In this document: positions 13,067 through 61,410 of the stretch, one piece after another
How the letters are laid out: each line of letters starts with the position of its first letter
How positions within the stretch are numbered: the first letter of the stretch is position 1
From: Lachnospiraceae bacterium AC2029
GTDB taxonomy: Bacteria > Bacillota > Clostridia > Lachnospirales > Lachnospiraceae
Length of the DNA stretch: 64,000 nt
Direction: 5' to 3'
Assembly: GCA_000703065.1 (NCBI GenBank)
Contig: JNLK01000001.1
Span: forward strand, 2,502,001-2,566,000
The notes under the pieces: generated by a model
The model's database searches: none
Told to the model about the DNA's origin: nothing
What the model saw: only the letters and a program-made list of their open reading frames with translations
Program-made: the position numbers and the translations under genes

Positions 13067-13137
13067 ATCAGAGAAATGATTCACGTATCCTTCGATTCAA
13101 TTACGAACCAATATTCAATGAAAGAGGATTATAACAA

Positions 13138-48287: not shown

Positions 48288-48312
48288 TTCTGTTGCTCAA
48301 GTGTTGTTCAAG
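48288..48312 (+). promoter_or_regulatory. 25-bp direct-repeat operator candidate, copy 1
   Basis: TTCTG then TTGCTCAAGTGTTGTTCAAG: two TTGNTCAAG nonamers with an 11-bp period. Identical to 54824-54848. It lies about 150 bp upstream of the secreted 550-residue protein, and a GTCAG sits 15 bp beyond the second repeat, as in copy 2 (ATCAG, 16 bp). Confidence 0.6.
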
Positions 48313-48462
48313 GGTTTGGTTGTGCTGTCAGGATCTTTTTTTGCTTTTGAAAAAGATTTTCGCCTTGTTGTGAGTTTGTTGTTATCGGTGTTGTATATTG
48401 ACATCAGAAAGAACGGAAAACCCTATGAAGGGAGAAAATTAAAAGATTGGAGGATAAGAACT

Positions 48463-50115
48463 ATGAAGAAAATAAAAATGATGACACTTTCATTGGCAGT
48501 AGGAACCGCTTTTACATTTACAGCACCGGCGTTCGGAGGAACCGCTTATGCCGCACCTGTACTTGATGCATCGATTTCCGCGGATGATCTCGCGGATCAA
48601 GTGACGGGTATCGCAAAGGACCTGGCAGAGGAAGGAATCGACTATGTAGCAGGCCTGGTGCCCTGCGGAACATGGCTGGCTAAGCCCTTTAAGTTCGTAC
48701 TCGGAAAGCTTCTTGACGATGGCGGAGAGAATAAGACCAAGAGTCTTCTGGATGAGATCAACAACAAGATGACGGAAATGAAAGAACAGATCGGTAAAGT
48801 GTCCGCACAGATCAGTGACCTTTCAACAAAGCTGGATGAGAAGACCGGAATCATCGCTACCAGGATCAAGAACGGCTTCAATCTGGCAACTCTTCGGGAT
48901 GACATCAAGGCACTCAATTATGATATCAATGAGGTATATAAAGATGTAGAGGATATCGCAGAGCGTCTGGCGAAAGGAACGATCACGGAAGAGCAGGCAA
49001 AGCTGGAACTGGCATCGCTCTATAAGGCAACCAGAATGGATGATCTGAAGTTCAGGATCTTCAATCTCCGGAATTCCATGAGCCAGAACGGCGGACTGAT
49101 CTACGCAGACTTCTACAGAACTGTATTTAACTGCTATGCGGAGGACTATATGTTCAGCGGAGAGTTCTTTGACAAGGCAAAGGCAGATGCAGATGCCCTG
49201 ACATCCCAGTATCTTCTGGGCTGCGGTCTTCTGATGACCTGCCAGGCGGCAGTTCCGGATGTGGCAGCATTCTCAGCAGATCAGCTGGCAGCACTTGATA
49301 CGGAGCATTTCGCATACTATACCGACATCATGAAGAAGCAGAACCGGCTTGAAAAGGATATGAAGGATACAGTAAGTGCAGTAAATGCAGCCACCGAAGG
49401 CTACAGAAAATTCTACGAAGACTACCATGAGAACCGCTACGTGAACTTCGGTCTCGAGAATCTGAAATTCAGGAGTGAGGAGACAAACTTCAAATTCACA
49501 AAGCAGTTAAGATACGATCACGATTTTCCGGGAAGCTACCCCGGACGTTATGCAAGCATTGACGAGGTCAAGAAGGTATACAAGGCATGCCAGTATCATC
49601 TGGATAAGCTTTACTTCACGCCCGAGCTGATGAAGAAAGTAACCGATTATATCCGGAAGAACTATCCGGGCATGACGATCCGTCAGTTCTACAAGGAAAT
49701 TACAGGCGAAGATCTTAAAGGTCAGTATGTGATCACGGATTCCAAGGTTGAAGAAAAGGAAACGGCACACCAGTACGGAGACTGGGGTGGATTAGGCCGC
49801 AAGTTTGATATCCTCATGAAGGGGATCGGCGTAGATGATCCGAAGCTTGAAGTAAAGGGTGTTGTGTTCTGCAAGATAGGAACAGGATGGTTCGCAGGAC
49901 GCAATGCTTACAGCGAGAGTGATAGAAGAGCTTTCTACAACGGAGAATACAGGATCTGCAACTTTGCTGCAGAGACAGATACCATCTTCAGATACAGCCT
50001 TCCGGCTGCTGATATCTTCGATATCGTATACAGCGGAGCGAAGACCTACACAAACGCAGACGGTGTCCTTATCCAGGGACCCCGGTTCCCGATCCCGGGA
50101 CTCACAGATTTCTGA
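48463..50115 (+). CDS. Large secreted helical protein, possible toxin-like
   Basis: 550 residues. Signal peptide MKKIKMMTLSLAVGTAFTFT... ends near AYAA-PVLD. A hydrophobic/amphipathic segment follows (VAGLVPCGTWLAKPFKFVLG), then a long coiled coil (about 85-165; MTEMKEQIGKVSAQISDLST). The C-terminal third is rich in Tyr/Phe and Gly. The pattern of a hydrophobic hairpin region and long helices recalls helical pore-forming toxins or delta-endotoxin N-domains, but I cannot name a family. ATG 48463 follows GGAGGA; the longer reading from 48217 has no ribosome site. Confidence 0.8.
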   Translation: MKKIKMMTLSLAVGTAFTFTAPAFGGTAYAAPVLDASISADDLADQVTGIAKDLAEEGIDYVAGLVPCGTWLAKPFKFVLGKLLDDGGENKTKSLLDEINNKMTEMKEQIGKVSAQISDLSTKLDEKTGIIATRIKNGFNLATLRDDIKALNYDINEVYKDVEDIAERLAKGTITEEQAKLELASLYKATRMDDLKFRIFNLRNSMSQNGGLIYADFYRTVFNCYAEDYMFSGEFFDKAKADADALTSQYLLGCGLLMTCQAAVPDVAAFSADQLAALDTEHFAYYTDIMKKQNRLEKDMKDTVSAVNAATEGYRKFYEDYHENRYVNFGLENLKFRSEETNFKFTKQLRYDHDFPGSYPGRYASIDEVKKVYKACQYHLDKLYFTPELMKKVTDYIRKNYPGMTIRQFYKEITGEDLKGQYVITDSKVEEKETAHQYGDWGGLGRKFDILMKGIGVDDPKLEVKGVVFCKIGTGWFAGRNAYSESDRRAFYNGEYRICNFAAETDTIFRYSLPAADIFDIVYSGAKTYTNADGVLIQGPRFPIPGLTDF

Positions 50116-50308: not shown

Positions 50309-50446
50309 ATGGATATGGATTTTAAAACGCTTGAGAAAGAAATTAGTTATACTGTTGTTTTCTGGGAAAAGAACAATCCTGAAAGAAAATACAGGATTGG
50401 CGTCTGTATACGGGGGTTACCGGTCTGTAAGCCGGTGGAAGAGTGA
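50309..50446 (+). CDS. 45-residue hypothetical protein upstream of the kinase
   Basis: ATG 50309 is preceded by GGAGGAA (8 bp) and by a TATAAT at 50265-50270. The product starts MDMDFKTLEKEISYTVVFWE, is charged, soluble and has two Cys in the last third. Family unknown. It may be a real small protein or a truncated remnant. Confidence 0.45.
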   Translation: MDMDFKTLEKEISYTVVFWEKNNPERKYRIGVCIRGLPVCKPVEE

Positions 50447-50500
50447 AGCCTCAATTTCAGTGGCAAGTGCCAATTTGGAACGTTCTTGGCCATTGAGCTA

Positions 50501-50509
50501 TGATATAAT
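50501..50509 (+). promoter_or_regulatory. Extended -10 promoter of the two-component operon
   Basis: TGATATAAT, an extended -10 with no good -35. The same TGATATAAT occurs before the second condensation-like gene (59184-59192) and the YesL gene. Confidence 0.6.
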
Positions 50510-50536
50510 CAAATAGTCTTCTGCAGGAGGAATGTA

Positions 50537-52513
50537 ATGAATAAAGCTTTGAAAGGCAAGGCATGGACGATCGTCGGATTTTCCATCATCTTTCTGATCA
50601 TCGTAGGGATCATCGCCCTGGTACGGTATTTCACGCCGGATACCCAGTTCATCGAATCGCGGGATGCTCTGGTGGAAGGAGAGTATTCTGTCGACGGAGG
50701 TGAATGGAAGGAGTTCTACGGATCGGAATCCATAAATGAACGGTTCCAACGGATCGAGATCCGATGGCGGGTACAGCCACAGGATCTTATTGTGTTCAGT
50801 AATCTGAATATTTCCTCGAAGAATGTCTGGTATAATCTGTCAAGGGAAGACGGATTTTTGATTCTTGAGCGTAAATATGAAAGCAGAGAAATGCTGTGGG
50901 ATAAGGCCTATGAGTTCTACAAGGATACCATCGACGATCCAAATGATCCCTATATGGACAAGGAATATTTCATAAAAAATTTTCCGATTGGCTACAGTCT
51001 GGATATGGATATGCCGGACACTCCCGGGTATTCCGTGGGGATCCGTCATTCCGGTGATCTGTATGATAATGATACAACGGCCCTCTTAAATATGGATCAG
51101 GGCCCGATGATGATCCTTACGGTGGAGAATCCTTACGGCGAAAAAATGCGGTTTTCGGAATGCTGCCAGGTGCTCTTCAGCGGGGAAAATGGATTCTATT
51201 TCCTGTTCTTCAAGGAAGCACTACCTGCGGTGATGCTGTTTGCACTGGTGTGCTTCTTCGGCCTGTTCCTGTTCCCCATTGCCGGCTTTATCCTTGGAAA
51301 GGTGGATTATCGTTATCTGGCCTTCGGAGCCCTCAGCTTCATCTGGGGACTCTATATGATCGGTCAGAGGATCAGTGGCTATCTGAACCTTTGGGTCAAG
51401 GACGCGACCGTCTGCATGGCCGTCATAGTGTTGTTGAAGTATTGTCTGATGATCGCCATCCTGCTTTATCTGAAGGTGAATCTGAAAAGAGACCGGGGGC
51501 GTAAATTTGCGAATCTGGTAACTGTTATCTACATTCTTGCGGTGATCGCCGCCATTATCTGTCATTTCACCTTCGTGTGGGATCTCTATGCATCCTCGGA
51601 TGTTATGGATATTTTCATGGCGATCTGTACGCTGCTCATGGGAGGACTCCTTGTCACGGAGGCAGGGGAATCCAGACAGACGGTACATGTTCTGATCGGC
51701 ATGGCGCCGCTGGCAGTATCCACACTTCTGGATGCATTAAATGGTTTCTTTGATTTCGCGGATTTCCATTTTTACTATTTCGGTCTGACCATTACCATGT
51801 TGTACCAGCTGTTCAGGATCATTCTGGATCTCCGGCAGCAGTACAAGGATGCCATCCGCTACCAGAAGATGCAGAAGGAGCTTTATGAGGCCAAGGTAGG
51901 TGTGATGGTCAGTCAGATCCAGCCACATTTTATGTACAATGCTTTGACCTCCATCGCGATGCTGTGCTCCGAAGATCCGGACACCGCGCAGGAGGCCACG
52001 GTGACCTTTGCAAAGTATCTCCGTGGAAATATGGATTCTCTGAAGCAGACAGCTCCGGTGCCCTTCGAGCAGGAGCTGGAGCATCTGAAGAAGTATCTCT
52101 ATATCGAGAAGCTTCGTTTTGATGAGAAGTTGAATATCGTATATGATATAGAGGCCACGGACTTCCGTCTGCCGCAGCTGTCGATCCAGCCGCTGGTGGA
52201 AAATGCGGTGAAGCATGGTGTGGGAATGAAGAAGAAGGGCGGAACCGTGACCATATCCACACGGGAGACGGAGGCGGACTACCGCGTCATCATCTCCGAT
52301 GACGGTGTGGGATTTGACATGGAAGAGGTCCGTAAGAAGCAGGAGACCGAGAGTGACGGCAAATCCCATGTGGGGATGGAGAATACCCGGAGAAGACTGC
52401 AGGATATGTGTGATGGAAGAGTTGAGATCGAAAGCACGCCGGGAGAGGGGACCGTTGCAACTGTGATCCTTCCCAAAAGCGGACAGGAAAAGTCGGATGA
52501 GGAAGACCAATAG
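50537..52513 (+). CDS. LytS-type membrane sensor histidine kinase
   Basis: 658 residues. One N-terminal membrane helix, an extracellular domain of about 190 residues, then seven closely spaced membrane helices (about 225-430), the 7TMR-DISM layout used for sensing extracellular ligands. The cytoplasmic His_kinase domain has the phosphoacceptor H464 in SQIQPHFMYNALTSI, the N box QPLVENAVKHGVG and DDGVGFD. It is a YesM/LytS-class kinase. The response regulator gene follows 9 bp later. The ligand is unknown; the mini-peptides nearby are candidates. Confidence 0.9.
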   Translation: MNKALKGKAWTIVGFSIIFLIIVGIIALVRYFTPDTQFIESRDALVEGEYSVDGGEWKEFYGSESINERFQRIEIRWRVQPQDLIVFSNLNISSKNVWYNLSREDGFLILERKYESREMLWDKAYEFYKDTIDDPNDPYMDKEYFIKNFPIGYSLDMDMPDTPGYSVGIRHSGDLYDNDTTALLNMDQGPMMILTVENPYGEKMRFSECCQVLFSGENGFYFLFFKEALPAVMLFALVCFFGLFLFPIAGFILGKVDYRYLAFGALSFIWGLYMIGQRISGYLNLWVKDATVCMAVIVLLKYCLMIAILLYLKVNLKRDRGRKFANLVTVIYILAVIAAIICHFTFVWDLYASSDVMDIFMAICTLLMGGLLVTEAGESRQTVHVLIGMAPLAVSTLLDALNGFFDFADFHFYYFGLTITMLYQLFRIILDLRQQYKDAIRYQKMQKELYEAKVGVMVSQIQPHFMYNALTSIAMLCSEDPDTAQEATVTFAKYLRGNMDSLKQTAPVPFEQELEHLKKYLYIEKLRFDEKLNIVYDIEATDFRLPQLSIQPLVENAVKHGVGMKKKGGTVTISTRETEADYRVIISDDGVGFDMEEVRKKQETESDGKSHVGMENTRRRLQDMCDGRVEIESTPGEGTVATVILPKSGQEKSDEEDQ

Positions 52514-52522
52514 GAGGTACGT

Positions 52523-53308
52523 ATGAGGATATTGTGTCTTGATGATGAACGACTGGCTTTGAAAATGCTGGTAAACTGTGTGAAGAAGGTGAAGCCGGAT
52601 GCAGAGGTTGAAGCCTTTGATGATCAGGATGAACTGATCGCAGATGCGAAGGAAAATGGCTGCGATGTCGCATTTCTCGATATTCATATGCGTGGTATGA
52701 CCGGAGTACAGGTGGCGAAGAAGCTGAAGGAGATCAACCCGAAGCTGAATATCATCTTTGTTACAGGCTTTTCCGAGTATAAGGGTGAGGCTATGGATAT
52801 GAAGGCCAGCGGTTATATCATGAAGCCTGTCACAAAGGAGGAGGTCGCACAGGAACTGGAGGAGCTTCGGTTCCCCATCGTTCCGAAGAAGGATGCGATA
52901 CTGAAGGTGCAGTGCTTCGGGAATTTCGATGTGTTTACTCCGGACGGGAAGCCGGTACATTTCGATCGTAGCCGGGCCAAGGAAATCTTCGCGTATCTGG
53001 TACACCGTCATGGTAGTTCCTGTTCTTCTCGGGAGATCGCAGCGGCTCTTTTCGAGGATGAGCCTTACGACAAGAAGCAGCAGAGCTATCTTCAGACGCT
53101 TATTGCGGTTATGATGAAGAGCCTCAAGGCTGTGGGCGCGGAGGCTGCCGTGAATAAGGATTATAATTCCATGTCCGTGAATACAAAGGTTCTGGACTGT
53201 GATTATTACCGTTTCGCCGAACTGGATGCAGGTGCGGTAAATGCTTATTCCAACGAGTATATGAGTCAGTATTACTGGGCGGAGTTTATGACGGATGACT
53301 GGGAGTAG
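52523..53308 (+). CDS. Response regulator with SARP-like winged-helix output domain
   Basis: 261 residues. Receiver domain 1-120: acidic pair D7-D8, phosphorylation site D53 in AFLDIHMRG, conserved Lys in IMKPVT. The output domain (about 130-225; CFGNFDVFTPDGKPVHFDRS, then AKEIFAYLVHRHG) resembles the OmpR-like DNA-binding part of SARP regulators instead of the LytTR or AraC domain usual for LytS/YesM partners. SARPs bind direct repeats with 11-bp period, matching the operator candidates at 48288 and 54824. Confidence 0.88.
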   Translation: MRILCLDDERLALKMLVNCVKKVKPDAEVEAFDDQDELIADAKENGCDVAFLDIHMRGMTGVQVAKKLKEINPKLNIIFVTGFSEYKGEAMDMKASGYIMKPVTKEEVAQELEELRFPIVPKKDAILKVQCFGNFDVFTPDGKPVHFDRSRAKEIFAYLVHRHGSSCSSREIAAALFEDEPYDKKQQSYLQTLIAVMMKSLKAVGAEAAVNKDYNSMSVNTKVLDCDYYRFAELDAGAVNAYSNEYMSQYYWAEFMTDDWE

Positions 53309-53423
53309 ATTACAAGTACCGACAGCACAGTGTCCGATCGTCACCCTATGGCGTACAATCGGGATTTGATGAAGAATGGCAATAATAGAGATATCTTCCA
53401 AAATTTTAGTGAGGAAAACGCTT

Positions 53424-54668
53424 ATGGTTAGAAAATTATTCACAGAGTTGAGATCTATTTATTCCGGACACAACATCATTCGCATCCGTATTCGGATGAG
53501 AGATTTGATTGATCCAGGGGTGCTGCGGTATGCGGTTGATACAACCATGAAAAGATATCCATACTTTTGTGTCGAAATAAAGCGTGATCCTGAGTTGTAT
53601 TATGATGAAAACACTCGGCCGGTTGTTATTACTTCTTCTTTGTCAGGTGTGATGCTTAATTCCGAGGAATCAAATTTTCACCTAATTTCCTTTTCTTATA
53701 CTGACAATTGGATTGAAATGGACATTTCGCATGCCATGACAGATGGCACAGGAGCCTATGAAGTGATTCGAACTCTTCTGTATTACTATGTATCCAGGCG
53801 TTATGGCCTCGACTTGTCAACAGATGGAATTCGTATTGTAGGAGACGAAATCAGGCAGGAAGAATGGGAAGATCCTGTTTTGACCGCTGAGAACTTGCCC
53901 ACTCCGGGCAGAACCGATATGCCTCAGGCGCTGAGCATAATAAAATCAGCGGGATTAGAAGAAAAGAGAAGTCCAACAGTATATAGTATAGCTGTCCCCG
54001 AAGATGAGTTTATGCGATTCAACGTTGAAAACGATGGGAGTCCGGCAACTATGGTATCACTGTTTTTAAGCAGGGCCGTTGCCAGGACATTTCCGGAGAG
54101 CAAGGACGTTATTCGCATTGCAATGTGCATCAACCAGCGGAAAGCTCTGAAGGCACCACTGGCTCATCAGTCGCTGGTGGGCGGCGCGATGCTCGAGTAT
54201 AAGGAGAAGATGCGTTCTTGGTCTTTGGATCGACAGGCTACAGCATACCGTGGTATGGTGTTTGCACAGTCTCAGGAAGACAAGGTGCTTGAAGGTGTGG
54301 CCAGGATGAAGGGAATCAGTCAACTCCTTTTGTCGAAAGCGACTGAACAGGAGCGTGTAGGTGTTGCAGGAATGATTGCAAATTTGTCTGCTAAAATTCT
54401 AACTGCCACAGTCAGCTATGTCGGAAAGGCAAACTACTACGATTCGGAGAAATACATACGTGATTTCCGAGTGTGGACACAGAGTTCGGGAGATACCATT
54501 TTGATTGAGATTTCCGCAGTGAACGGGAGGTTTACAATGGACTTCATGCAACCATTCTCCGATCCGCTCGTTTTGAATGCATTTCTCAGAGAGTTGGATG
54601 AAAACGGAATTACATATGATCTTCAGGATGTTGAGCGTTTGGAACTTCCTATGTGTGCCTCGGTCTAA
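53424..54668 (+). CDS. Stand-alone condensation-domain/alcohol-acetyltransferase-like protein A
   Basis: 414 residues. The acyltransferase motif HxxxDG is intact (H103, D107 in ISHAMTDGTG). KRYPYF at 43-48, SLVGGAML and YVGKANYYDS fit the two-lobed condensation/WES/AATase superfamily. Start ATG 53424 has GAGG 9 bp upstream and gives the same 414 length as its paralogue at 59272; an ATG at 53376 is possible. No adenylation or carrier domain is present, so it would use acyl-CoA or acyl-carrier substrates supplied elsewhere. It is 115 bp downstream of the two-component genes and upstream of the mini-peptides. Confidence 0.8.
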   Translation: MVRKLFTELRSIYSGHNIIRIRIRMRDLIDPGVLRYAVDTTMKRYPYFCVEIKRDPELYYDENTRPVVITSSLSGVMLNSEESNFHLISFSYTDNWIEMDISHAMTDGTGAYEVIRTLLYYYVSRRYGLDLSTDGIRIVGDEIRQEEWEDPVLTAENLPTPGRTDMPQALSIIKSAGLEEKRSPTVYSIAVPEDEFMRFNVENDGSPATMVSLFLSRAVARTFPESKDVIRIAMCINQRKALKAPLAHQSLVGGAMLEYKEKMRSWSLDRQATAYRGMVFAQSQEDKVLEGVARMKGISQLLLSKATEQERVGVAGMIANLSAKILTATVSYVGKANYYDSEKYIRDFRVWTQSSGDTILIEISAVNGRFTMDFMQPFSDPLVLNAFLRELDENGITYDLQDVERLELPMCASV

Positions 54669-54731
54669 TTGCTACAAATTCTCGTTGCTGGGATGATGTG
54701 ATAGAAGAGTGAGACCGGAACAGGAAGATTC

Positions 54732-54761
54732 ACCGTCGTCCCCGCTGGGTATAGCGGCAGA
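54732..54761. repeat. 30-bp quasi-palindrome, copy 3
   Basis: ACCGTCGTCCCCGCTGGGTA followed by TAGCGGCAGA, the same family as 43189 and 43243 although 11 kb away. Confidence 0.7.
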
Positions 54762-54823
54762 ACATACATATTCATATGCAGTAAGGAATAGCGATGTGAG
54801 AAAAAAGGGGAGAATTGATGAGA

Positions 54824-54848
54824 TTCTGTTGCTCAAGTGTTGTTCAAG
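54824..54848 (+). promoter_or_regulatory. 25-bp direct-repeat operator candidate, copy 2
   Basis: Identical 25 bp to copy 1: TTCTG then TTGCTCAAGTGTTGTTCAAG. The second repeat occupies the -35 position relative to a weak -10 TGTGAT (54860-54865), as expected for a class of activator-dependent promoters. It drives the region encoding mini-peptides 1 and 2. Confidence 0.65.
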
Positions 54849-54894
54849 CCTTGAAAAACTGTGATCAGAACAAAGGAAAAATCTTTTGACCGGG

Positions 54895-54925
54895 CAGACT
54901 GCAATTTGCAGTCTGTTTTCTATTT
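54895..54925 (+). terminator. Stem-loop with T-tract in the mini-peptide leader
   Basis: CAGACTGC/GCAGTCTG with AATTT loop, followed by TTTTCTATTTT. It lies between the putative promoter and peptide 1, so it may be an attenuator. The remaining 115 bp before peptide 1 hold nothing else recognisable. Confidence 0.7.
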
Positions 54926-55040
54926 TGAAAAAGTTAATTTCACTGTTGTTTTTATTTTGTACAGCACTTTTTATAGCAGACGTAGCACTGGGAACATGGA
55001 TAATGACAGGATACAAAGGTTAATGGGAAGGAGGGCGCGT

Positions 55041-55112
55041 ATGGAAACAGCAACAAATGTAGTAACTGGTATTGCTGGAGTCGCAGGAATTGTACTGTTA
55101 TTCTTACTGTAA
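55041..55112 (+). CDS. Hydrophobic mini-peptide 1 (23 aa)
   Basis: METATNVVTGIAGV then a run of aliphatic residues ending LLFLL. The ATG follows AAGGAGGG at 55028-55035 with ideal spacing. Nearly the whole peptide can span a membrane; it has a TGIAGVAG small-residue patch and no Cys. An in-frame upstream ATG at 54996 would give 38 residues but lacks a ribosome site. Function unknown: secreted signal, bacteriocin-like, or membrane toxin are all possible. Confidence 0.7.
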   Translation: METATNVVTGIAGVAGIVLLFLL

Positions 55113-55163
55113 GAGCATGTCACAGGATAAAATGATTAAAAGTATGAAAGAGAGGATATGAGC

Positions 55164-55253
55164 ATGGAGAAAATAATCGGATATACAGCAGCAGGCGCAG
55201 GACTGGCAACTACGATCGGAACCATAGCACTTTTCGTTGTCTGCCTTCTGTAA
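55164..55253 (+). CDS. Hydrophobic mini-peptide 2 (29 aa)
   Basis: MEKIIGYTAAGAGLATTIGT followed by a hydrophobic end with one Cys (VVCLL). A GAGAGG site precedes ATG 55164; an ATG at 55158 is too close to it. Size, starting ME, small-residue AAGAG patch and hydrophobic C-terminus match peptide 1, 51 bp upstream, indicating a family. Confidence 0.7.
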   Translation: MEKIIGYTAAGAGLATTIGTIALFVVCLL

Positions 55254-55312
55254 GGAATGAAGAAAGAATGATAAAACAGAATATGGGGTAATCTATGAGA
55301 TATAGTAGGTGG

Positions 55313-55347
55313 GGCGCTTTCCGGATGTGTGGAAGGCGCCTTTTGAA
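55313..55347 (+). terminator. Terminator after mini-peptide 2
   Basis: GGCGCTTTCC/GGAAGGCGCC stem (one asymmetric pairing), loop GGATGTGT, followed by TTTT. The right arm begins the duplicated segment R1. Confidence 0.75.
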
Positions 55348-55383
55348 GAAAGCTAAGATGTCAGTGTGTCTTTCTTGAATAGG
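55333..55383 (+). repeat. Segment R1, homologous to 56870-56921
   Basis: Starts AAGGCGCCTTTTG, shares TAAGATGT and ends TGAATAGG with R2; roughly two-thirds of 51 positions match. R1 and R2 flank the AbiE pair. The rest of 55254-55493 shows nothing else. Confidence 0.65.
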
Positions 55384-55493
55384 CATGAATAGGAATAGAG
55401 ACTAGGTGATGACTTGAAATAGTAAATCCCAGTGAACTGGTTAATTCCACCAGTGTATATAAGTATCCGTTTATTTCTGGAGCAAGAAAAAAG

Positions 55494-55531
55494 TTTACTC
55501 ATACGCTACACTTTGGTATAATATGTAGCGT
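55494..55531 (+). promoter_or_regulatory. AbiE promoter and operator
   Basis: -35 TTTACT (55494-55499), 17-bp spacer, -10 TATAAT (55517-55522). The inverted repeat ACGCTACA...TGTAGCGT (55503-55510, 55524-55531) flanks the -10, the arrangement expected for autorepression by AbiEi. Confidence 0.82.
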
Positions 55532-55543
55532 GGAGGTAAATAA

Positions 55544-56134
55544 ATGAAGTATGAATTATTATTGAATTTAACTGAAGAGTATGGAGGAATCCTAAAAACG
55601 GCGGATGTCCTTAAGGCGGGAGTATCAAAGACATATTTAATGGATTATGTCAAAGCGTATCATTTTGAAAAGCTCGCAAATGGAATTTACCTTTCGCCGG
55701 ACGCTTGGAGGGATGAACTGTATATTCTACAACTGCGTTTCCCGGGACTTATTTATTCGCATAATGTATCACTTTATCTTTTTGACTTAAATGACCGTGA
55801 ACCGACAAGGTATACAGCGACTGTGCGTAGGGGATATAATGCAAAAAAACCGAGGGAACTTGGAGTTGCTGTATATACTGTAAAACGCGAATTGTATGAA
55901 ATGGGTGTCACAACTACAATGACGACGATGGGCCATGAGGTGAAGCTTTATTCACCGGAAAGGACGATTTGTGATATCCTGCGACCGAATGCAAATGTGG
56001 AAATGCAGGATCGTCAGACGGCCTTAAAGGAATATGTGAGCAGAAAAGACAGGGATATTCCTATATTGATGGAGTATGCAAAGAACTTAAAGGTAGATAA
56101 GAAATTAAAAAAATATCTGGAGGTTTTGTTATGA
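55544..56134 (+). CDS. abiEi: AbiEi-family antitoxin/transcriptional repressor
   Basis: 196 residues. The N-terminal winged helix (GGILKTADVLKAGVSKTYLM, FEKLANGIYLSPDAW) and the C-terminal antitoxin domain (VKLYSPERTICDILRP) match AbiEi_4 proteins. It binds its own promoter and neutralises the AbiEii toxin of a type IV abortive-infection system. It overlaps the toxin gene start by 4 bp. Base composition is more A/T-rich than core genes. Confidence 0.9.
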   Translation: MKYELLLNLTEEYGGILKTADVLKAGVSKTYLMDYVKAYHFEKLANGIYLSPDAWRDELYILQLRFPGLIYSHNVSLYLFDLNDREPTRYTATVRRGYNAKKPRELGVAVYTVKRELYEMGVTTTMTTMGHEVKLYSPERTICDILRPNANVEMQDRQTALKEYVSRKDRDIPILMEYAKNLKVDKKLKKYLEVLL

Positions 56135-56778
56135 TTCATTCTTCCGATCAGTTAAAATCGCGGGTCAGAAAGATGGCTAACGGCGATAACAAGAAATCAT
56201 TGGTTTTGATCCGAAAGTATGTAATGGAAAGATTTCTTGAGAGAATATCAGTTTCGCCATACAGGAGGAATTTTGTTATTAAGGGTGGGGCGCTGGTTTC
56301 TTCCATGGTTGGTGCAGAGAATCGTGAAACGATGGATATTGATACTTCAATCAACGGATTTAACCTGGATGAAGATACGTTGAAAAGAATACTGCTTGAA
56401 ATAGCAAATATACCGATGGAAGACGGTCTGACATTTGAAATAACTAAAGTAAAGCAAATAATGGATGCATTTGAATATCCGGGAATACGCATCATGATGG
56501 TGGGAATGCTCGATAAAATGCGAACACCGCTTAAGATTGATGTTTCTACGGATGATGTGATTACCCCGGGAGAGATAGAGTACGAGTATCCGTTGTTGTT
56601 TGAAGAACGTAGCATTTCCATTCTTTCCTATAACCTTGAGACGCTCCTGGCAGAGAAACTTGAAACAGTATTAAGTCGATCAGTAGCGAATACACGGATG
56701 AGAGATTTTTATGATTTGGCGATACTCACGTCCGGAGCATATAGGGAATATGATGTTCAGCTGGGAAGATGTTATTAG
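56131..56778 (+). CDS. abiEii: AbiEii-family nucleotidyltransferase toxin, C-terminally broken
   Basis: 215 residues, against about 280-300 for AbiEii. Conserved N-terminal motifs are intact: FVIKGGALVSSMVG and the nucleotidyltransferase D-x-D in METMDIDTS-like context (ETMDIDTSINGF), plus LLAEKLETVLSRSVANTRMRDFYD. After about residue 208 the frame ends, but the +1 frame at 56759-56815 reads SWEDVIRAVSGLFDRIGY and stops, which looks like a family C-terminal end. An internal deletion of about 65 codons plus frameshift is likely, so the toxin is probably inactive. Confidence 0.85.
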   Translation: MIHSSDQLKSRVRKMANGDNKKSLVLIRKYVMERFLERISVSPYRRNFVIKGGALVSSMVGAENRETMDIDTSINGFNLDEDTLKRILLEIANIPMEDGLTFEITKVKQIMDAFEYPGIRIMMVGMLDKMRTPLKIDVSTDDVITPGEIEYEYPLLFEERSISILSYNLETLLAEKLETVLSRSVANTRMRDFYDLAILTSGAYREYDVQLGRCY

Positions 56779-56869
56779 GGCTGTTTCAGGGTTGTTTGAT
56801 CGGATAGGATACTGAGTACCTTCAGGAATGCTTCTTGGAGTAACACTGATCATTCTGCTGAAAAAATGC

Positions 56870-56921
56870 AAGGCGCCTTTTGTAGTGGGGTTAAGATGTA
56901 ATGGCATTTTTCCTGAATAGG
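56870..56921 (+). repeat. Segment R2, homologous to R1
   Basis: Begins AAGGCGCCTTTTG and ends TGAATAGG. It lies before mini-peptide 3 in the same orientation as R1. Confidence 0.65.
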
Positions 56922-56979
56922 TCTGAGAGAGAGAATTGCCAGGCAGACTGCAACCTTATCAGAAAGGAGGAAACCAATT

Positions 56980-57063
56980 ATGATGACAGCATTCGTAATT
57001 ATGGGAACAGCCTCGATTGCAGTATCTGCAGGACTGGCAATCCTCAAGCATTTCGTTAAGTAA
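56980..57063 (+). CDS. Hydrophobic mini-peptide 3 (27 aa)
   Basis: MMTAFVIMGTASIAVSAGLA then a short basic end (LKHFVK). AAAGGAGG precedes the ATG by 8 bp. One membrane-spanning segment with a positively charged C-terminus. The preceding GGCAGACTGCAA matches the leader hairpin of the peptide 1 region, supporting common origin. Function unknown. Confidence 0.68.
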   Translation: MMTAFVIMGTASIAVSAGLAILKHFVK

Positions 57064-57137
57064 TACAACAGAGTTCACATAGACAAATAAATTTTAAGAT
57101 TTTACTTGAAAAAAATTTTTAATTCAATTAGCCTTTT

Positions 57138-57163
57138 CTTAGGACGTCCGAATCTTTCCTAAG
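57138..57163 (+). promoter_or_regulatory. Inverted repeat before the serine hydrolase
   Basis: CTTAGGA...TCCTAAG with a 12-nt gap, touching the ribosome site (57161-57169). Possible operator or translational hairpin. Confidence 0.45.
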
Positions 57164-57178
57164 AGGAGGCTTTTGATT

Positions 57179-58171
57179 ATGAATAAAGAACAACTACATA
57201 GGTACATTTCTGAGAACATCGGAAATGAAAGCAATATATGTCAGATCTATGCCATCAAAGACAGCGATGTGGTACTTGATGATTGCTGGCATGGCTTTAG
57301 GACTCTGGATGCCATGAATGTCAATTCCGTAACCAAAGGTGTTATGGGGCTACTTACCGGGATCGCATTGGATAACGGATACATCAGGAATCTGGATCAG
57401 AAGGTGATGGAGTTTTTCCCTGATTATTCTGTAAAACGTGGGGAGAAGACCATATACGATGTCACAATCAGGCATCTGCTTACTATGACAGCTCCATATA
57501 AGGGAAAGTCAGAACCCTGGAAGAAGGTGTGTACTTCACAGAACTTTACGGTAGCGATACTTGATTATCTTGGAGGACGTAATGGAATCACAGGTGAGTT
57601 CAGGTATGCTACGCTTGGTATTCAGATACTTACCGGAATAATCGAGAAAGCAACCGGTGAGAAATGCATAGATTTTGCAAACAAAAACCTATTTGAGCCA
57701 CTGGGACTCCCGAAGAGAATACCACATGGTGACAGTTCTAAAGAAGATCAGTTTGATTTCTTCATGAACAAAAATCCCAGGAAATACGAGTGGTACACTG
57801 ATCCTCAGGGCAGTGTTACCGCCGGCTGGGGATTATGCATGTCGGCAAAAGACATGGCTGTGATCGGGGCGATGGTGCTAGGCGGTGGCGTGTATAATGG
57901 AAAAAGGATTATCTCAAAAGAATACCTGAAAGACATGTTGGCACCTCACATTAAGCTTGGTGAGCGATTTGGCTTCATGAACTATGGCTACTTATGGTAC
58001 AAGCCCTACGATGATAAAGAGGTATATGCCGCGATTGGTGACAGCGGAAATATTATCTATATAAACAAAGATGTAAACGTATCTGTGGGAATTACAGGTA
58101 CATTCAAGCCAAGGATTTTCGACAGAGTCGATTTTATTGAGCGAAAAGTATTGCCGGTGATTGATGAGTGA
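57179..58171 (+). CDS. Serine hydrolase, class C beta-lactamase/penicillin-binding-protein-like
   Basis: 330 residues, no signal peptide. The catalytic S50-x-x-K53 is in NVNSVTKGVMGLL; the second motif is YAT in GEFRYATLGIQIL, instead of YxN. This family includes esterases, D-amino-acid peptidases and transacylases. ATG 57179 has AAGAGGAGG 9 bp upstream; the TTG at 57173 is too close. Located after mini-peptide 3; it could modify or hydrolyse an acylated product of this locus (inference). Confidence 0.85.
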   Translation: MNKEQLHRYISENIGNESNICQIYAIKDSDVVLDDCWHGFRTLDAMNVNSVTKGVMGLLTGIALDNGYIRNLDQKVMEFFPDYSVKRGEKTIYDVTIRHLLTMTAPYKGKSEPWKKVCTSQNFTVAILDYLGGRNGITGEFRYATLGIQILTGIIEKATGEKCIDFANKNLFEPLGLPKRIPHGDSSKEDQFDFFMNKNPRKYEWYTDPQGSVTAGWGLCMSAKDMAVIGAMVLGGGVYNGKRIISKEYLKDMLAPHIKLGERFGFMNYGYLWYKPYDDKEVYAAIGDSGNIIYINKDVNVSVGITGTFKPRIFDRVDFIERKVLPVIDE

Positions 58172-58246
58172 TTGTCGATCATATCAGAAGTTGATCGCAC
58201 ACCTCCTGTAAAAAATAGGAGCATCAAGCAGCATACGGAAATCTGA

Positions 58247-58287
58247 AGATTCAGGATGACAGTTTATGTTATTCTGAATCTTTTTTT
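58247..58287 (+). terminator. Terminator after the serine hydrolase
   Basis: AGATTCAGGATGACA pairs with TGTTATTCTGAATCT (with G-T pairs), then T7. Confidence 0.85.
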
Positions 58288-58302
58288 GAATCTGTAAGAG
58301 GT

Positions 58303-58346
58303 TTGTAAGTGCCGGTATGTTATCCTATGGTCAGAACAAAGGAAAA
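58303..58346 (+). promoter_or_regulatory. Promoter region with motif shared with the peptide leader
   Basis: Possible -35 TTGTAA (58303-58308), 17 bp, -10 TATGGT (58326-58331), directly followed by TCAGAACAAAGGAAAA (58331-58346). The same 16 bases follow the peptide promoter at 54865-54880. Confidence 0.5.
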
Positions 58347-58382
58347 CCTTAGAAATATATACTGATAAGGGAGGGAAATGTT

Positions 58383-58928
58383 ATGAAGAAGACTATGAGA
58401 AAGATTATCGCACTCATCACAATGTGTTTAGTACTTATGCTCCCACTCACCGCATATGCAGCGCCCGGAGGGCTTCATAAGCCGCGCAGGACATATGAGC
58501 AGGCCGTAAAGCATTTTGAGGAGATTAAGAACAAGCAGGTACATATCCAGTTCTCCCACAGAGGACTGTATGTTGCCAACGAGTCCATATTATATGCCAG
58601 AAAGATAGTCGGCGTCAATGAGGACGGGACTTATCAGCTGAGCCCCTGGGAGTGCATCTCTCATCGTAGTAATGTAGCCTACTGCGATGATAAGGAAATC
58701 ACCCTTCCGGCAACCTATGTAATCTTCGGATACAGCTTTGACATAGCTTGGGGAACAGACTGGCCGTACGGTCAGGAGTTCTGGAATAATGTAAATACCG
58801 TGGCAGAAGATGTCTTAATACTGATCACCGGCGGGACCAGAACACCCGAGGTTCGGATCTTGGTAAACGGTAATACTATATACAAAAATGATAATTGCGC
58901 TGCACATAACCAGTGGATCCCGCGGTAA
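58383..58928 (+). CDS. Small secreted protein, unknown family
   Basis: 181 residues. A clear signal peptide (ALITMCLVLMLPLTAYAA, cleavage after AYA) leads to a mature domain of about 155 residues with three Cys, Trp/Tyr-rich segments and a C-terminal NCAAHNQWIPR. Family not recognised. It is a single-gene unit between two terminators, and its promoter region shares a 16-bp motif with the mini-peptide leader, so it may be co-regulated. Confidence 0.75.
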   Translation: MKKTMRKIIALITMCLVLMLPLTAYAAPGGLHKPRRTYEQAVKHFEEIKNKQVHIQFSHRGLYVANESILYARKIVGVNEDGTYQLSPWECISHRSNVAYCDDKEITLPATYVIFGYSFDIAWGTDWPYGQEFWNNVNTVAEDVLILITGGTRTPEVRILVNGNTIYKNDNCAAHNQWIPR

Positions 58929-58950
58929 GTGAGAATTGTCAGTAAGCAGA

Positions 58951-58982
58951 GAGGCCTCGGTTTATTATACCGAGGCCTCATT
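58951..58982 (+). terminator. Terminator after the small secreted protein
   Basis: 11-bp perfect stem GAGGCCTCGGT/ACCGAGGCCTC with a 7-nt TTATTAT loop, then ATT. Confidence 0.8.
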
Positions 58983-58993
58983 AGGTTCTAAAA

Positions 58994-59179
58994 ATGGGCC
59001 CCCGCCAAACGGAAAAAGAAAAAGACCGGCCCAGTTTTAATTACATCGAACATCAGCTGGACGGGCTGCAGGCAGATGTGCTCTTTCTCGGGGGTTCCGG
59101 CCTGGGGAAGGCTGACAGGGAAACCGGGAAACGGTTCTTCAGTGAAAGTGTGCCAATACGGAACATTATAATTCTTTGA
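58994..59179 (+). pseudogene. Remnant, possibly of an MBL-fold metallo-hydrolase
   Basis: 61 codons. FNYIEHQLDGLQADVLFLGG and LGKADRETGKRFFSES recall the middle of metallo-beta-lactamase-fold hydrolases of Firmicutes, but no metal-binding motif or ribosome site is present. Recognition is from memory of the family and is uncertain. Confidence 0.35.
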
Positions 59180-59183
59180 TCCA

Positions 59184-59192
59184 TGATATAAT
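59184..59192 (+). promoter_or_regulatory. Extended -10 promoter of the second acyltransferase operon
   Basis: ATGATATAAT with -10 TATAAT at 59187-59192 and no good -35, the same style as the kinase promoter. Confidence 0.6.
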
Positions 59193-59271
59193 GCAATAGT
59201 ATTCTGAAAATCCAATAAAACAGAAGACAGAATTGATCCGGAATGAATTATATATTATGGGAGGATAAAAG

Positions 59272-60516
59272 ATGGCAATGAATAAGGCAGATTTATCGGG
59301 AATCATCAGTTCACCTAAAAAACCCAATATCATGGAGTTCCTTTTTATTCTGAAAGAGGATATCGACAGGGATATTATGGACAGGGCCATGCAGAGGACT
59401 ATAAAGAGATATCCTTATTTTGCTTTTCAGATCATCAGGAATGAGAATGGATATGACAAGATAGAGAATGACCGGCCTGTTGTGGTAAAGGATTCTTTTT
59501 CGGAGGAAATCGTTCTTGGTGCGGAAAACGTCAATTATCATTGGCTCGCCGCAGCATGTGACGGAAGACAACTCAAACTATTAGTTAGTCATATGATTGC
59601 CGATGGCAGGAGTGCTATGCGGTTCTATAAAACGCTGCTTTACTGTTATATCTGCGAAAGACATCATGTTCAGCTGGACCCTGCGGGTATCATATTGCCG
59701 GACTCGCCGATCTCTCCGGATGAAGATGTTAAGGTATTTAATACCGTGGATGGGGAAGATGGCACAATGCGGAATACAGTAAAGGATCCTTTTGTGATAC
59801 CCGAAGCTGTGAAAGACGAAATGAAAGGGTATTTATACCAGGTCAGCATCCCGGAGAAAGAATTCCTGGCATCCTCAAAGGGAAGCGACAACAGTCCGCT
59901 CACGCTCCTGACCGTCTATATGGCGAAAACTCTTCAAAGCCTGAATCCTGAAAATGATAAGGAGATCTATGCGGGAATAGCCGTAGATGTCCGGGATGCA
60001 CTTCAGTGTCCGGAAAGCAGATTTTCCAATTCCTATGTGGTTTTTATTAAGCATGATCCTGCTAAGCTTGATCTCGATTTAGAACGTCTCGGAACGATGA
60101 CACGTGGTCAGATCATCATTCAAAGTGACGAAGGGATCGTGAAATATATTCATAATTCGGTTATGCGTATTTCTGCGCAGATACGGTCGACATCGGACAT
60201 GATGGAAAAACAGCGGTTAATGCACGAAATATATCAGCTGGTGGCTTCGAATCCGTCATATATGATCAGTTATGTCGGAAATCCTGAGTGGGGCAGTCTG
60301 GAGCCTTATATCGAAGAAGAGTATACAGTCATCATGAAAGATAAGCTGTTCCTGGAAGTGAATGCAGCCGGTGGCAAATTCTGTATCGGTTGGGTTCAGG
60401 GATTTGAAAATGATTCTTATGTGAAAGAGTTTCAGCAGATGCTGGAGAATAATGGGATCAATTGTGAGGTAAAAGGACCATTCGTCCATAATTGGCACAA
60501 GTGCTATCTGCCATAA
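59272..60516 (+). CDS. Stand-alone condensation-domain/alcohol-acetyltransferase-like protein B
   Basis: 414 residues, paralogue of the protein at 53424. HxxxDG is intact (H107, D111 in LVSHMIADGRS). It shares KRYPYF with protein A and has a similar late SYVGNPEWGSLEPY. GGGAGGATAAAAG precedes the ATG. The HExxH gene starts 30 bp downstream, so they form one operon. It would transfer an acyl group to an alcohol or amine; the substrates are unknown. Confidence 0.82.
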   Translation: MAMNKADLSGIISSPKKPNIMEFLFILKEDIDRDIMDRAMQRTIKRYPYFAFQIIRNENGYDKIENDRPVVVKDSFSEEIVLGAENVNYHWLAAACDGRQLKLLVSHMIADGRSAMRFYKTLLYCYICERHHVQLDPAGIILPDSPISPDEDVKVFNTVDGEDGTMRNTVKDPFVIPEAVKDEMKGYLYQVSIPEKEFLASSKGSDNSPLTLLTVYMAKTLQSLNPENDKEIYAGIAVDVRDALQCPESRFSNSYVVFIKHDPAKLDLDLERLGTMTRGQIIIQSDEGIVKYIHNSVMRISAQIRSTSDMMEKQRLMHEIYQLVASNPSYMISYVGNPEWGSLEPYIEEEYTVIMKDKLFLEVNAAGGKFCIGWVQGFENDSYVKEFQQMLENNGINCEVKGPFVHNWHKCYLP

Positions 60517-60546
60517 TCAGACGCTGAATGAAAAGGAGAAATCGGG

Positions 60547-61410
60547 ATGACATTGCAGGAGCTGGCGGATAAGTATAATCTGAATGATGAGGAGAGTTCT
60601 GTATTCGAGGAATATACGAGGAACCGTTTTGCGGGGGCAGAAGAGAATGAGGATCCGGATACGGGTTTCCTCGATCTATGGAACAGGATTCTGATTTATT
60701 CGGGTTTGGCCGGTGTGGACAGGGCAATCAACGAGAAGGTCTGTTCAAAACGGCCGGTCGATTTTCGGTCGCCGCAGACAATGAAGCTGGAGATCTATGA
60801 TTCCGTAGCCGGGATGATCCCGATCATCTATGTGCGTGACACGGAGGACTTCGAACAGCTGGTGACGAACATTGCCTATAAAGGGATCCGTCCGGAGAAT
60901 ATCTCAACCACCGGAGCCTCCTTTATCTCCGGGAAGACCACCCGGTTCATCATTCTTTCCGCCAAGCCCTACAGTAATGTTCCGGCTTCCGAACTGGGAC
61001 TTCCGGATAAAGCAGAGTGGGAAGAAAAGTCACTGATCCTGCGGCGGGGGCATGAGTGTACCCATTATTTCACGAAACAGACCTACGGGATCACGAACAA
61101 TATCCTGCACGATGAGATCATGGCGGATTTCATCGGGATATATGAGGCGTTTGGGTTCTATAAGGCCGAATGGTTCCTGAGATTTATGGGAATCATCGAA
61201 GGCAGCGGCAGGAGATTCATTTTCTATACCGGGGATCTGCCGGAGAATGTCCGTAAGGCCACATCGAAGCTTGCGGAGCTCTGTGCATATAACCTGGAGA
61301 AGTGGTCCCTTACGGATAGCTTCCGTGCGATGACGGTCGGTGACAGGATTAAATATATGTGCAGAGCCGGATTTGAAGGGCTTCTGCGGGAGAATTACGG
61401 AAGCATATGA
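60547..61410 (+). CDS. HExxH protein, putative zinc metallopeptidase
   Basis: 287 residues, no signal peptide. LILRRGHECTHYFTKQ has a zinc-binding HExxH at 169-173, and the following HDEIMADFIGIYEAFG supplies a candidate third ligand (E190, with D194 near). Related in pattern to small cytoplasmic gluzincin-like proteins, but the family is not recognised. A 30-bp spacing to the acyltransferase suggests a shared pathway, for example trimming of the mini-peptides (inference). AAAGGAG ribosome site. Confidence 0.7.
   Translation: MTLQELADKYNLNDEESSVFEEYTRNRFAGAEENEDPDTGFLDLWNRILIYSGLAGVDRAINEKVCSKRPVDFRSPQTMKLEIYDSVAGMIPIIYVRDTEDFEQLVTNIAYKGIRPENISTTGASFISGKTTRFIILSAKPYSNVPASELGLPDKAEWEEKSLILRRGHECTHYFTKQTYGITNNILHDEIMADFIGIYEAFGFYKAEWFLRFMGIIEGSGRRFIFYTGDLPENVRKATSKLAELCAYNLEKWSLTDSFRAMTVGDRIKYMCRAGFEGLLRENYGSI

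Follow-up and report, generated by a model that had tools for sequence, protein, structure and literature searches.

A candidate SARP-type two-component regulon of secreted proteins and hydrophobic mini-peptides in Lachnospiraceae bacterium AC2029

Quorum-sensing class II bacteriocin regulons are governed by LytTR regulators and HPK10 kinases, and leaderless bacteriocins are cationic peptides, usually of 30–50 amino acids (aa). A third point of reference is AfsR of Streptomyces, a SARP activator for which the available part of PMC10936776 describes a 22-bp box centred at −29.5, with its first repeat from −40 to −30. Here, we describe a locus within a stretch of 64,000 nt (the window; positions 2,502,001–2,566,000 of the 3.86-Mb single-contig genome of Lachnospiraceae bacterium AC2029, G000) that encodes a histidine kinase, a response regulator with a predicted SARP output domain, secreted proteins and an array of hydrophobic mini-peptides. 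With moderate confidence, we propose that this locus is the home of a SARP two-component regulon comprising secreted proteins and membrane-active mini-peptide arrays. Judged by titles and the beginnings of abstracts, no paper listed in searches of an open-access library describes such a system, and the main text of PMC13289728, as far as it was available, contains neither 'leaderless' nor 'NHLP'. Positions refer to the window unless a genome or locus is named, and all window features given below lie on the plus strand. A first-pass annotation had drawn the locus from 50309, where no gene begins, to 61410; the genes it listed are where it placed them, and it omitted an AbiEi/AbiEii pair and a secreted protein at 48463–50115, the latter beyond its range.

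The kinase (50537–52513) is of the LytS type, combining PF06580 (His_kinase, E 8e-22) with HATPase_c (PF02518) and a QPHF box containing His464. The seven-transmembrane (7TM) sensor previously ascribed to it is less secure, as the match to 7TMR-DISM_7TM is weak (E 0.007, under Pfam's cut-off). The response regulator (52523–53308) joins a receiver (PF00072) to an output domain with a predicted AfsR/EmbR fold. In the model of this domain (136 residues, 30 sequences, predicted local distance difference test (pLDDT) 83), an OmpR-like winged helix is followed by BTAD-type helices, the BTAD part being short and the protein ending there. Foldseek searches of the PDB ranked AfsR first (E 3.5e-4 and 6e-4) and EmbR next; by Z score AfsR (10.8 over 111 residues), PhoB (10.6 over 91) and EmbR (10.3 over 125) come out level, PhoB having the shortest alignment of the three. 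The model bears out the SARP-like output suggested by the first-pass annotation, and the predicted output domain matches in type the operator described below, to which the regulator would be expected to bind. In named genomes, the nearest regulators come from metagenome-assembled genomes titled Eubacterium sp. (sheep rumen), Lachnospiraceae and Ruminococcus, the genome's own record possibly having been left out.

The operator emerges from a comparison set of 122 sequences, the window plus 121 loci (seven of which repeat contigs), drawn from genomes of relatives and from a regulator-alignment scan of named genomes that yielded 322 relatives, the best 80 of which were kept as L085–L164. The related sequence scanned for operators amounts to 1.69 Mb, duplicates and training sites included. 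At L123, the kinase and regulator genes are followed by seven mini-open reading frames (mini-ORFs; six found by script, one by eye) and a gene of the secreted SEC545 family (see below), and a recurring promoter stands before the mini-ORF and SEC545 units: TGTAAG, five bases, TGTAAG, a −10 element and a fixed leader. Scanning the 122 sequences for the TGTAAG repeat gave 30 sites versus 4 for the reversed pattern, and a 50-bp profile built on 23 sites gave 59 (those 23 included) versus 0 in one shuffle per strand. A half-site-free scan, which accepts an 11-bp repeat of any bases together with the −10 and leader of the 50-bp profile, returned 94 matches (mean over three shuffles, 0.0), corresponding to 88 distinct rows, which are spread over 42 sequences. 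Downstream of these rows, the first ORF is shorter than 60 aa in 14 cases, has a hydrophobic N-terminus in 60 by a crude test that does not separate signal peptides from membrane helices, and is of another kind in 11, among them an ABC ATPase, a resolvase-like ORF and members of a 183-aa family; for 3 rows no ORF was found. Half-sites vary among systems (TGTAAG, TGCAAAG, TGTCCG, TGTTG and others), as would be expected of parallel, separate kinase–regulator pairs.

In its general form, the operator consists of two 11-bp direct repeats (a 22-bp box), 6 bp and a −10 hexamer. Taking the hexamer as −12 to −7, with transcription start points assumed, the box extends from −40 to −19. On this placement of the −10, the geometry is the same as that of the AfsR box in the available part of PMC10936776, with 11-bp direct repeats that overlap the −35 region at a fixed distance from the −10. 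The bases directly after the −10 (TCAGAACAAAGGAAAA at 58331–58346) are kept across operons and genera, a conservation that an activator site alone does not explain. At L123, L138, L151, L164 and L149, several target genes are preceded by two or three tandem operators.

In a half-site-free scan of both strands of the window, the top three places are 58293 (score 45.5), 54827 (33.4) and 48366 (29.4), against maxima of 15.9–25.9 over 40 shuffled strands; they precede the gene of the secreted protein SEC181, mini-peptide 1 and the SEC545 gene, respectively. The SEC181 operator (58293–58314) reads TGTAAGAGGTT TGTAAGTGCCG, followed by 6 bp and TATCCT. Two operators lie before SEC545, the first (48291–48312; TGTTGCTCAAG TGTTGTTCAAG) with no good −10 behind it and the second (48366–48387) with two 11-bp repeats, 6 bp and TATATT. 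The operator of mini-peptide array A (54827–54848) is identical over 22 bases to the 48291 site, and this 22-mer occurs at two places in the 3.86-Mb genome at up to three mismatches (control, 0). The leader pattern, searched genome-wide at up to three mismatches, occurs at eight places (reversed control, 0), of which four belong to the two arrays described below and SEC181; the other four (1,408,660, 3,495,875, 700,634 and 1,209,681) have no repeat (0–3 of 8 positions) and are apparently unrelated.

All three mini-ORFs of the first-pass annotation could be located, although the strong ribosome site claimed for each was found for two. Mini-peptides 1 (23 aa, 55041–55112) and 3 (27 aa, 56980–57063) are preceded by AAGGAGG, whereas mini-peptide 2 (29 aa, 55164–55253) has a weak Shine–Dalgarno (SD) sequence, AGGA. 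A further candidate, a weak 45-aa hydrophobic ORF with a TTG start (54886–55023), would be the first behind the array A promoter. The 73 bp just 5′ of mini-peptide 1 (54949–55021), which are 92% identical to a stretch behind a VOC-type gene elsewhere in the genome (G000:C1:3516052-3516124, L190), may be part of this ORF.

A DNA search of 61 genus genomes with the array A region led to an operator-like place at 1,591,226, where the genome of the window carries another array, array B, 0.97 Mb away on the minus strand (G000:C1:1587968-1591175, equivalent to L201:3969-7176). It contains mini-ORFs of 22, 24, 26 and 39 aa behind two operators, an IS21-type element (by eye) and a fifth mini-ORF of 31 aa; one of its operators is identical over 20 bases to the second SEC545 operator. 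Operator-led mini-ORFs also occur at L059 (four), L123 (seven, one by eye), L138 (two), L151 (one) and L157 (one), at the last of which (L157:370-1560) a PI-PLC-X protein downstream of the operator adjoins the mini-ORF. Under one uniform set of criteria, a mini-ORF qualified if it had an ATG start, 16–45 aa, an SD match of at least 6, a hydrophobic product and a position outside long ORFs. Nineteen qualified in 3.18 million strand-bases of 115 sequences (the seven repeated loci dropped and array B not counted), and 13 of them have an operator no more than 1.5 kb upstream, a zone that makes up 3% of the sequence, versus 0.19 expected. Nine of these 13 are in the profile-training loci L123, L138 and L151; the remaining four, not behind training sites, are in the window, at L059 (two) and at L157. 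Together, operators common to the window, the rest of the genome and relatives support the earlier suggestion that the kinase–regulator pair controls the mini-peptides.

Twenty mini-peptides from the window and seven loci share a common character: they are 20–30 aa long, rich in Ile, Ala and Gly, with 0–3 Lys/Arg, a net charge of −1 to +2 and a grand average of hydropathy (GRAVY) of 0.65–2.2. In a shuffling test on 21 mini-peptides, array B included and near-copies and one L123 peptide excluded, 13 of 210 pairs were similar at p ≤ 0.01 versus 2.1 expected. Mini-peptide 3 resembles mini-peptide b3 of array B, and mini-peptide 1 resembles a mini-ORF downstream of an acyltransferase 1 orthologue in another genome (L033, G019). 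Read by eye, none of the mini-ORFs, those of array B included, has a double-glycine or Sec leader; they are too short to hold a class II leader plus core.

The secreted proteins form the second group of putative targets. SEC545 (48463–50115, 550 aa) has a signal peptide by eye and is helical, with a coiled coil and a C-terminal beta part; its AlphaFold model, of middling confidence (pLDDT 65), shows long helices and the same C-terminal beta part. Aligned with 14 other proteins, it is 14–99% identical, the C-terminal parts being variable. No convincing Pfam family was found for any of the 15 proteins, and sequence searches of the PDB gave coiled coils, none with an E value better than 0.002. 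A likeness to Vip3 insecticidal proteins is weak, falling under the level that is informative for helical bundles, and no sequence or Pfam match accompanies it. Several SEC545-type proteins at L123, L138, L151, L164 and L149 carry an Asn/Thr/Lys-rich stretch ahead of the signal peptide. SEC181 (58383–58928, 181 aa, signal peptide by eye) is the small secreted protein already noted at this place, and one of its relatives matches the SEC545 profile (E 3e-10). Since the exact TGTAAG form occurs at two places in the genome, upstream of SEC181 and upstream of the SEC545 homologue beside the L031 kinase–regulator pair, the L031 regulator of the same genome, which uses another half-site, is probably the one that reads SEC181. 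A further paralogous kinase–regulator–SEC545 unit, with its own half-site TGTGACA, starts 2.7 kb past the window (L006:5742-10312).

Among 92 distinct regulators surveyed, 82 have a kinase within 300 bp. Within 6 kb of these 82 pairs, with unequal flanks that total at least 6 kb for 69 of them, a SEC545 family member occurs 22 times, a SEC181 family member four times and an operator 38 times, with any of the three at 39 pairs. On gene neighbourhood, the core is kinase, regulator and secreted protein, and the acyltransferase stands outside it.

Several observations weigh against our proposal. Over half of the pairs (43 of 82, with the unequal flanks just mentioned) have none of SEC545, SEC181 or operator within 6 kb. 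The array A −10 is poor (AAAACT), the repeat of the first array B operator is weak (4 of 8), and the TGTAAG pattern with one mismatch occurs at six genome places versus four for the control. The SEC181 site would suit the L031 regulator rather than that of the window. As for the peptides, mini-peptide 2 has its weak SD, and mini-peptide 3, which is situated past the AbiE pair and has no operator of its own, is one of the six qualifying mini-ORFs outside operator-downstream zones; the L054 mini-ORF likewise lacks an operator. Array A DNA is matched in 3 of the 61 genus genomes, its own included, and in the other two the match covers only the operator or a hairpin. The G019 contig with the kinase relative (98%) bears no qualifying mini-ORF. 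Codon changes are mixed and selection is not clear (five non-synonymous and two synonymous in one pair, none and two in another).

The genes, the operators, their geometry and their recurrence are read from the sequence itself. Based on these, we propose the following hypothetical mechanism, in which (i) the membrane kinase would sense an outside cue and phosphorylate the SARP-type regulator; (ii) two regulator molecules would bind the 22-bp two-repeat site and, by analogy with AfsR, recruit RNA polymerase; (iii) the targets in this genome would be SEC545, array A and probably array B at 1.59 Mb; (iv) the mini-peptides would be made leaderless, each translated from its own ribosome site; (v) being near-neutral and very hydrophobic, they would most likely insert into membranes; and (vi) the most likely site of action of the peptides and secreted proteins together would be the envelope of other cells, target and purpose being a guess. 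Acyltransferase 1 lies beside the pair but is given no step. That the peptides and secreted proteins form a membrane-active arsenal is likewise a guess. A bolder extension, which we regard as tentative, is that many parallel kinase–SARP pairs with their own half-sites in rumen-type Clostridia deploy a new class of contact weapon or envelope modulator. In this picture, each operon would encode as many as seven different membrane peptides, all leaderless, near-neutral and rich in glycine, and their release would be accompanied by that of modular secreted helical proteins, which would either make pores or serve to deliver the peptides.

It is possible, though less probable than the proposed regulon, that the mini-peptides are not exported at all and remain in the producer's membrane as small membrane proteins, for instance tuning the kinase, protecting against SEC545 or acting like type I toxins. 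Their GRAVY of 0.65–2.2 and charge of −1 to +2 are more in keeping with one membrane helix than with a cationic bacteriocin that is secreted, and the window holds no C39 exporter gene, the nearest thing being an ABC-ATPase match of 23% at 13105–13851. However, the four to seven distinct peptides per operon exceed the need of a regulator.

The first-pass annotation envisaged mini-peptides that are possibly acylated and trimmed, exported, and sensed or controlled by the kinase, with the acyltransferases and hydrolases as the modifying enzymes. Both acyltransferases are there, acyltransferase 1 (53376–54668, condensation-like, HAMTDG) 68 bp 3′ of the regulator gene and acyltransferase 2 (59272–60516, HMIADG) further downstream. 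They are 25% identical to each other and both carry the HxxxDG motif described earlier, whereas the stated 414 aa applies to copy 1 only from a later ATG (430 aa from the first). In their family (A5), HxxxDG is held by 11 of 14 members, the other three having GG, and matches to profiles of the NRPS condensation superfamily and AATases are weak (Pfam Condensation, E 3e-4 in a single member of the 14; PapA5 model, E 0.054 with copy 2). The closeness of acyltransferase 1 to the regulator speaks for a shared role, as do acyltransferases adjoining the pair at L031, L045 and L147, those at L031:8223-9500 and L045:7514-8788 being 62% identical, and the mini-peptide 1-like ORF behind the G019 orthologue, where no operator was detected. 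The kinase and acyltransferase 2 also share a promoter palindrome (50467–50482 and 59150–59165), yet it serves about 12 promoters genome-wide. It is found at 15 genome sites at up to one mismatch (control, 2), and a putative genome-wide regulator may read it and thereby join the two genes. The palindrome, GTGCCAATATGGAAC, keeps a fixed distance to the −10 of these promoters (by eye), which include those of VOC-type genes.

Against such a role, an acyltransferase lies within 6 kb of just 4 of the 82 pairs (the window, L031, L045 and L147), a co-location that is perhaps above chance. The genome holds six scattered copies, of which two lie in the window and a third adjoins a pair (L031). The stretches fetched around the mini-ORFs of L059, L123, L138, L151 and L201 showed no acyltransferase. 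In two of the four pair-linked copies HxxxDG is replaced by HTVCGG (L031) or HAPCGG (L045), so that the aspartate is gone, and the HExxH gene next to acyltransferase 2 keeps other partners in relatives. Of the links drawn in the first-pass annotation, the one between the kinase–regulator pair and the mini-peptides holds, while the one to the acyltransferases finds no support. We consider acylation and trimming of the mini-peptides unlikely; on present evidence the locus is rather the proposed SARP two-component regulon than the source of an acylated signal.

The HExxH protein, a DUF7005 member with HECTH (60547–61410; PF22541, E 3e-47), does follow acyltransferase 2 directly, 30 bp behind it, as first described. 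DUF7005 occurs in 4 of the 61 genomes, that of the window included, and in all three others it lies directly behind an ABC-exporter pair (L045:1287-7373, L052:370-6441 and L065:3-4273). The exporter pairs of L045 and L052 exceed the NCBIfam cut-offs for NHLP bacteriocin export (TIGR03796, TIGR03797), and by gene order the HExxH protein of relatives is a member of a bacteriocin-export operon. The genes at L045 run from the exporter pair through DUF7005 and the acyltransferase to the kinase and then the regulator, with no operator detected, and the peptide-export idea of the first reading may find an echo in that genome. No precursor peptide was recognised at the three DUF7005 loci. At L045 and L052, an anti-sigma-antagonist-like gene stands ahead of the DUF7005 locus. 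No full-length relative of the NHLP transporter pair was found in the window or in nine other stretches of the genome, in agreement with the earlier remark that the window has no dedicated exporter.

Still more doubtful is the view that the mini-ORFs, instead of being genes, are leaders or remnants within untranslated regions, and that the regulon covers secreted proteins alone. Array A lacks conservation across the genus and the codon evidence is mixed, as this view would have it; yet in array B and at L059 the operators are followed by mini-ORFs and by no larger gene close to them, strong SDs recur, the enrichment is 13 versus 0.19, and the arrays resemble one another. That the genes are adjacent by chance and the kinase pair regulates something else, as the roughly half of pairs without such neighbours might suggest, is very improbable in view of the unique shared 22-mer and the operator statistics.

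Two further features lie in the locus. A beta-lactamase-fold serine hydrolase (57179–58171, PF00144), correctly reported before and a possible member of the system, has a relative at L064, where a kinase remnant lies next to an open regulator and the hydrolase relative (L064:3438-3812); the same locus holds a 1981-aa ORF that by eye resembles a peptide-synthetase adenylation protein (L064:11054-16999). Between mini-peptides 2 and 3, inside array A and not counted as its member, an AbiEi antitoxin-like gene (55544–56134; PADLOC, E 3e-63) adjoins an AbiEii-like gene (56131–56778) whose 215-aa product, compared with a 294-position model, is short at its C-terminus, an arrangement typical of an AbiE toxin–antitoxin pair.

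In summary, the operator points to peptides of 20–30 aa, a class commonly overlooked by annotation, makes them searchable and has already yielded array B. Should the peptides act on other cells, they would represent an undescribed weapon of gut bacteria, and a common one judging by the 322 regulator matches. The locus shares features with several known kinds of system. The NHLP export operon leads at L045 straight into DUF7005, acyltransferase, kinase and regulator, whereas the window has only DUF7005, the acyltransferase and the pair, in another order. As in class II bacteriocin regulons, a two-component pair would drive small-peptide operons through direct-repeat promoters; here, however, the output is SARP rather than LytTR, and no double-glycine leader, inducing peptide or C39 exporter was recognised in the window. 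Unlike leaderless bacteriocins, which are cationic and usually 30–50 aa long, the 20 peptides have 20–30 aa and charges of −1 to +2, with lengths of 22–39 aa in array B. Leaderless multi-peptide bacteriocins and phenol-soluble modulins likewise have several short leaderless peptides per operon with their own ribosome sites, but our mini-peptides are near neutral and almost wholly hydrophobic, not cationic or amphipathic. A SARP output domain, a module familiar from regulators of antibiotic production in Streptomyces, is thus predicted in Clostridia as part of two-component regulators, and the promoter geometry is the same. With SARP activators such as AfsR the proposed system has in common the output fold and a weak promoter whose two 11-bp direct repeats span roughly −40 to −19. 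It differs in that the SARP domain shares its polypeptide with a receiver and has a LytS-type kinase as partner, and in that the putative targets are secreted proteins and mini-peptides rather than the antibiotic clusters of Streptomyces.

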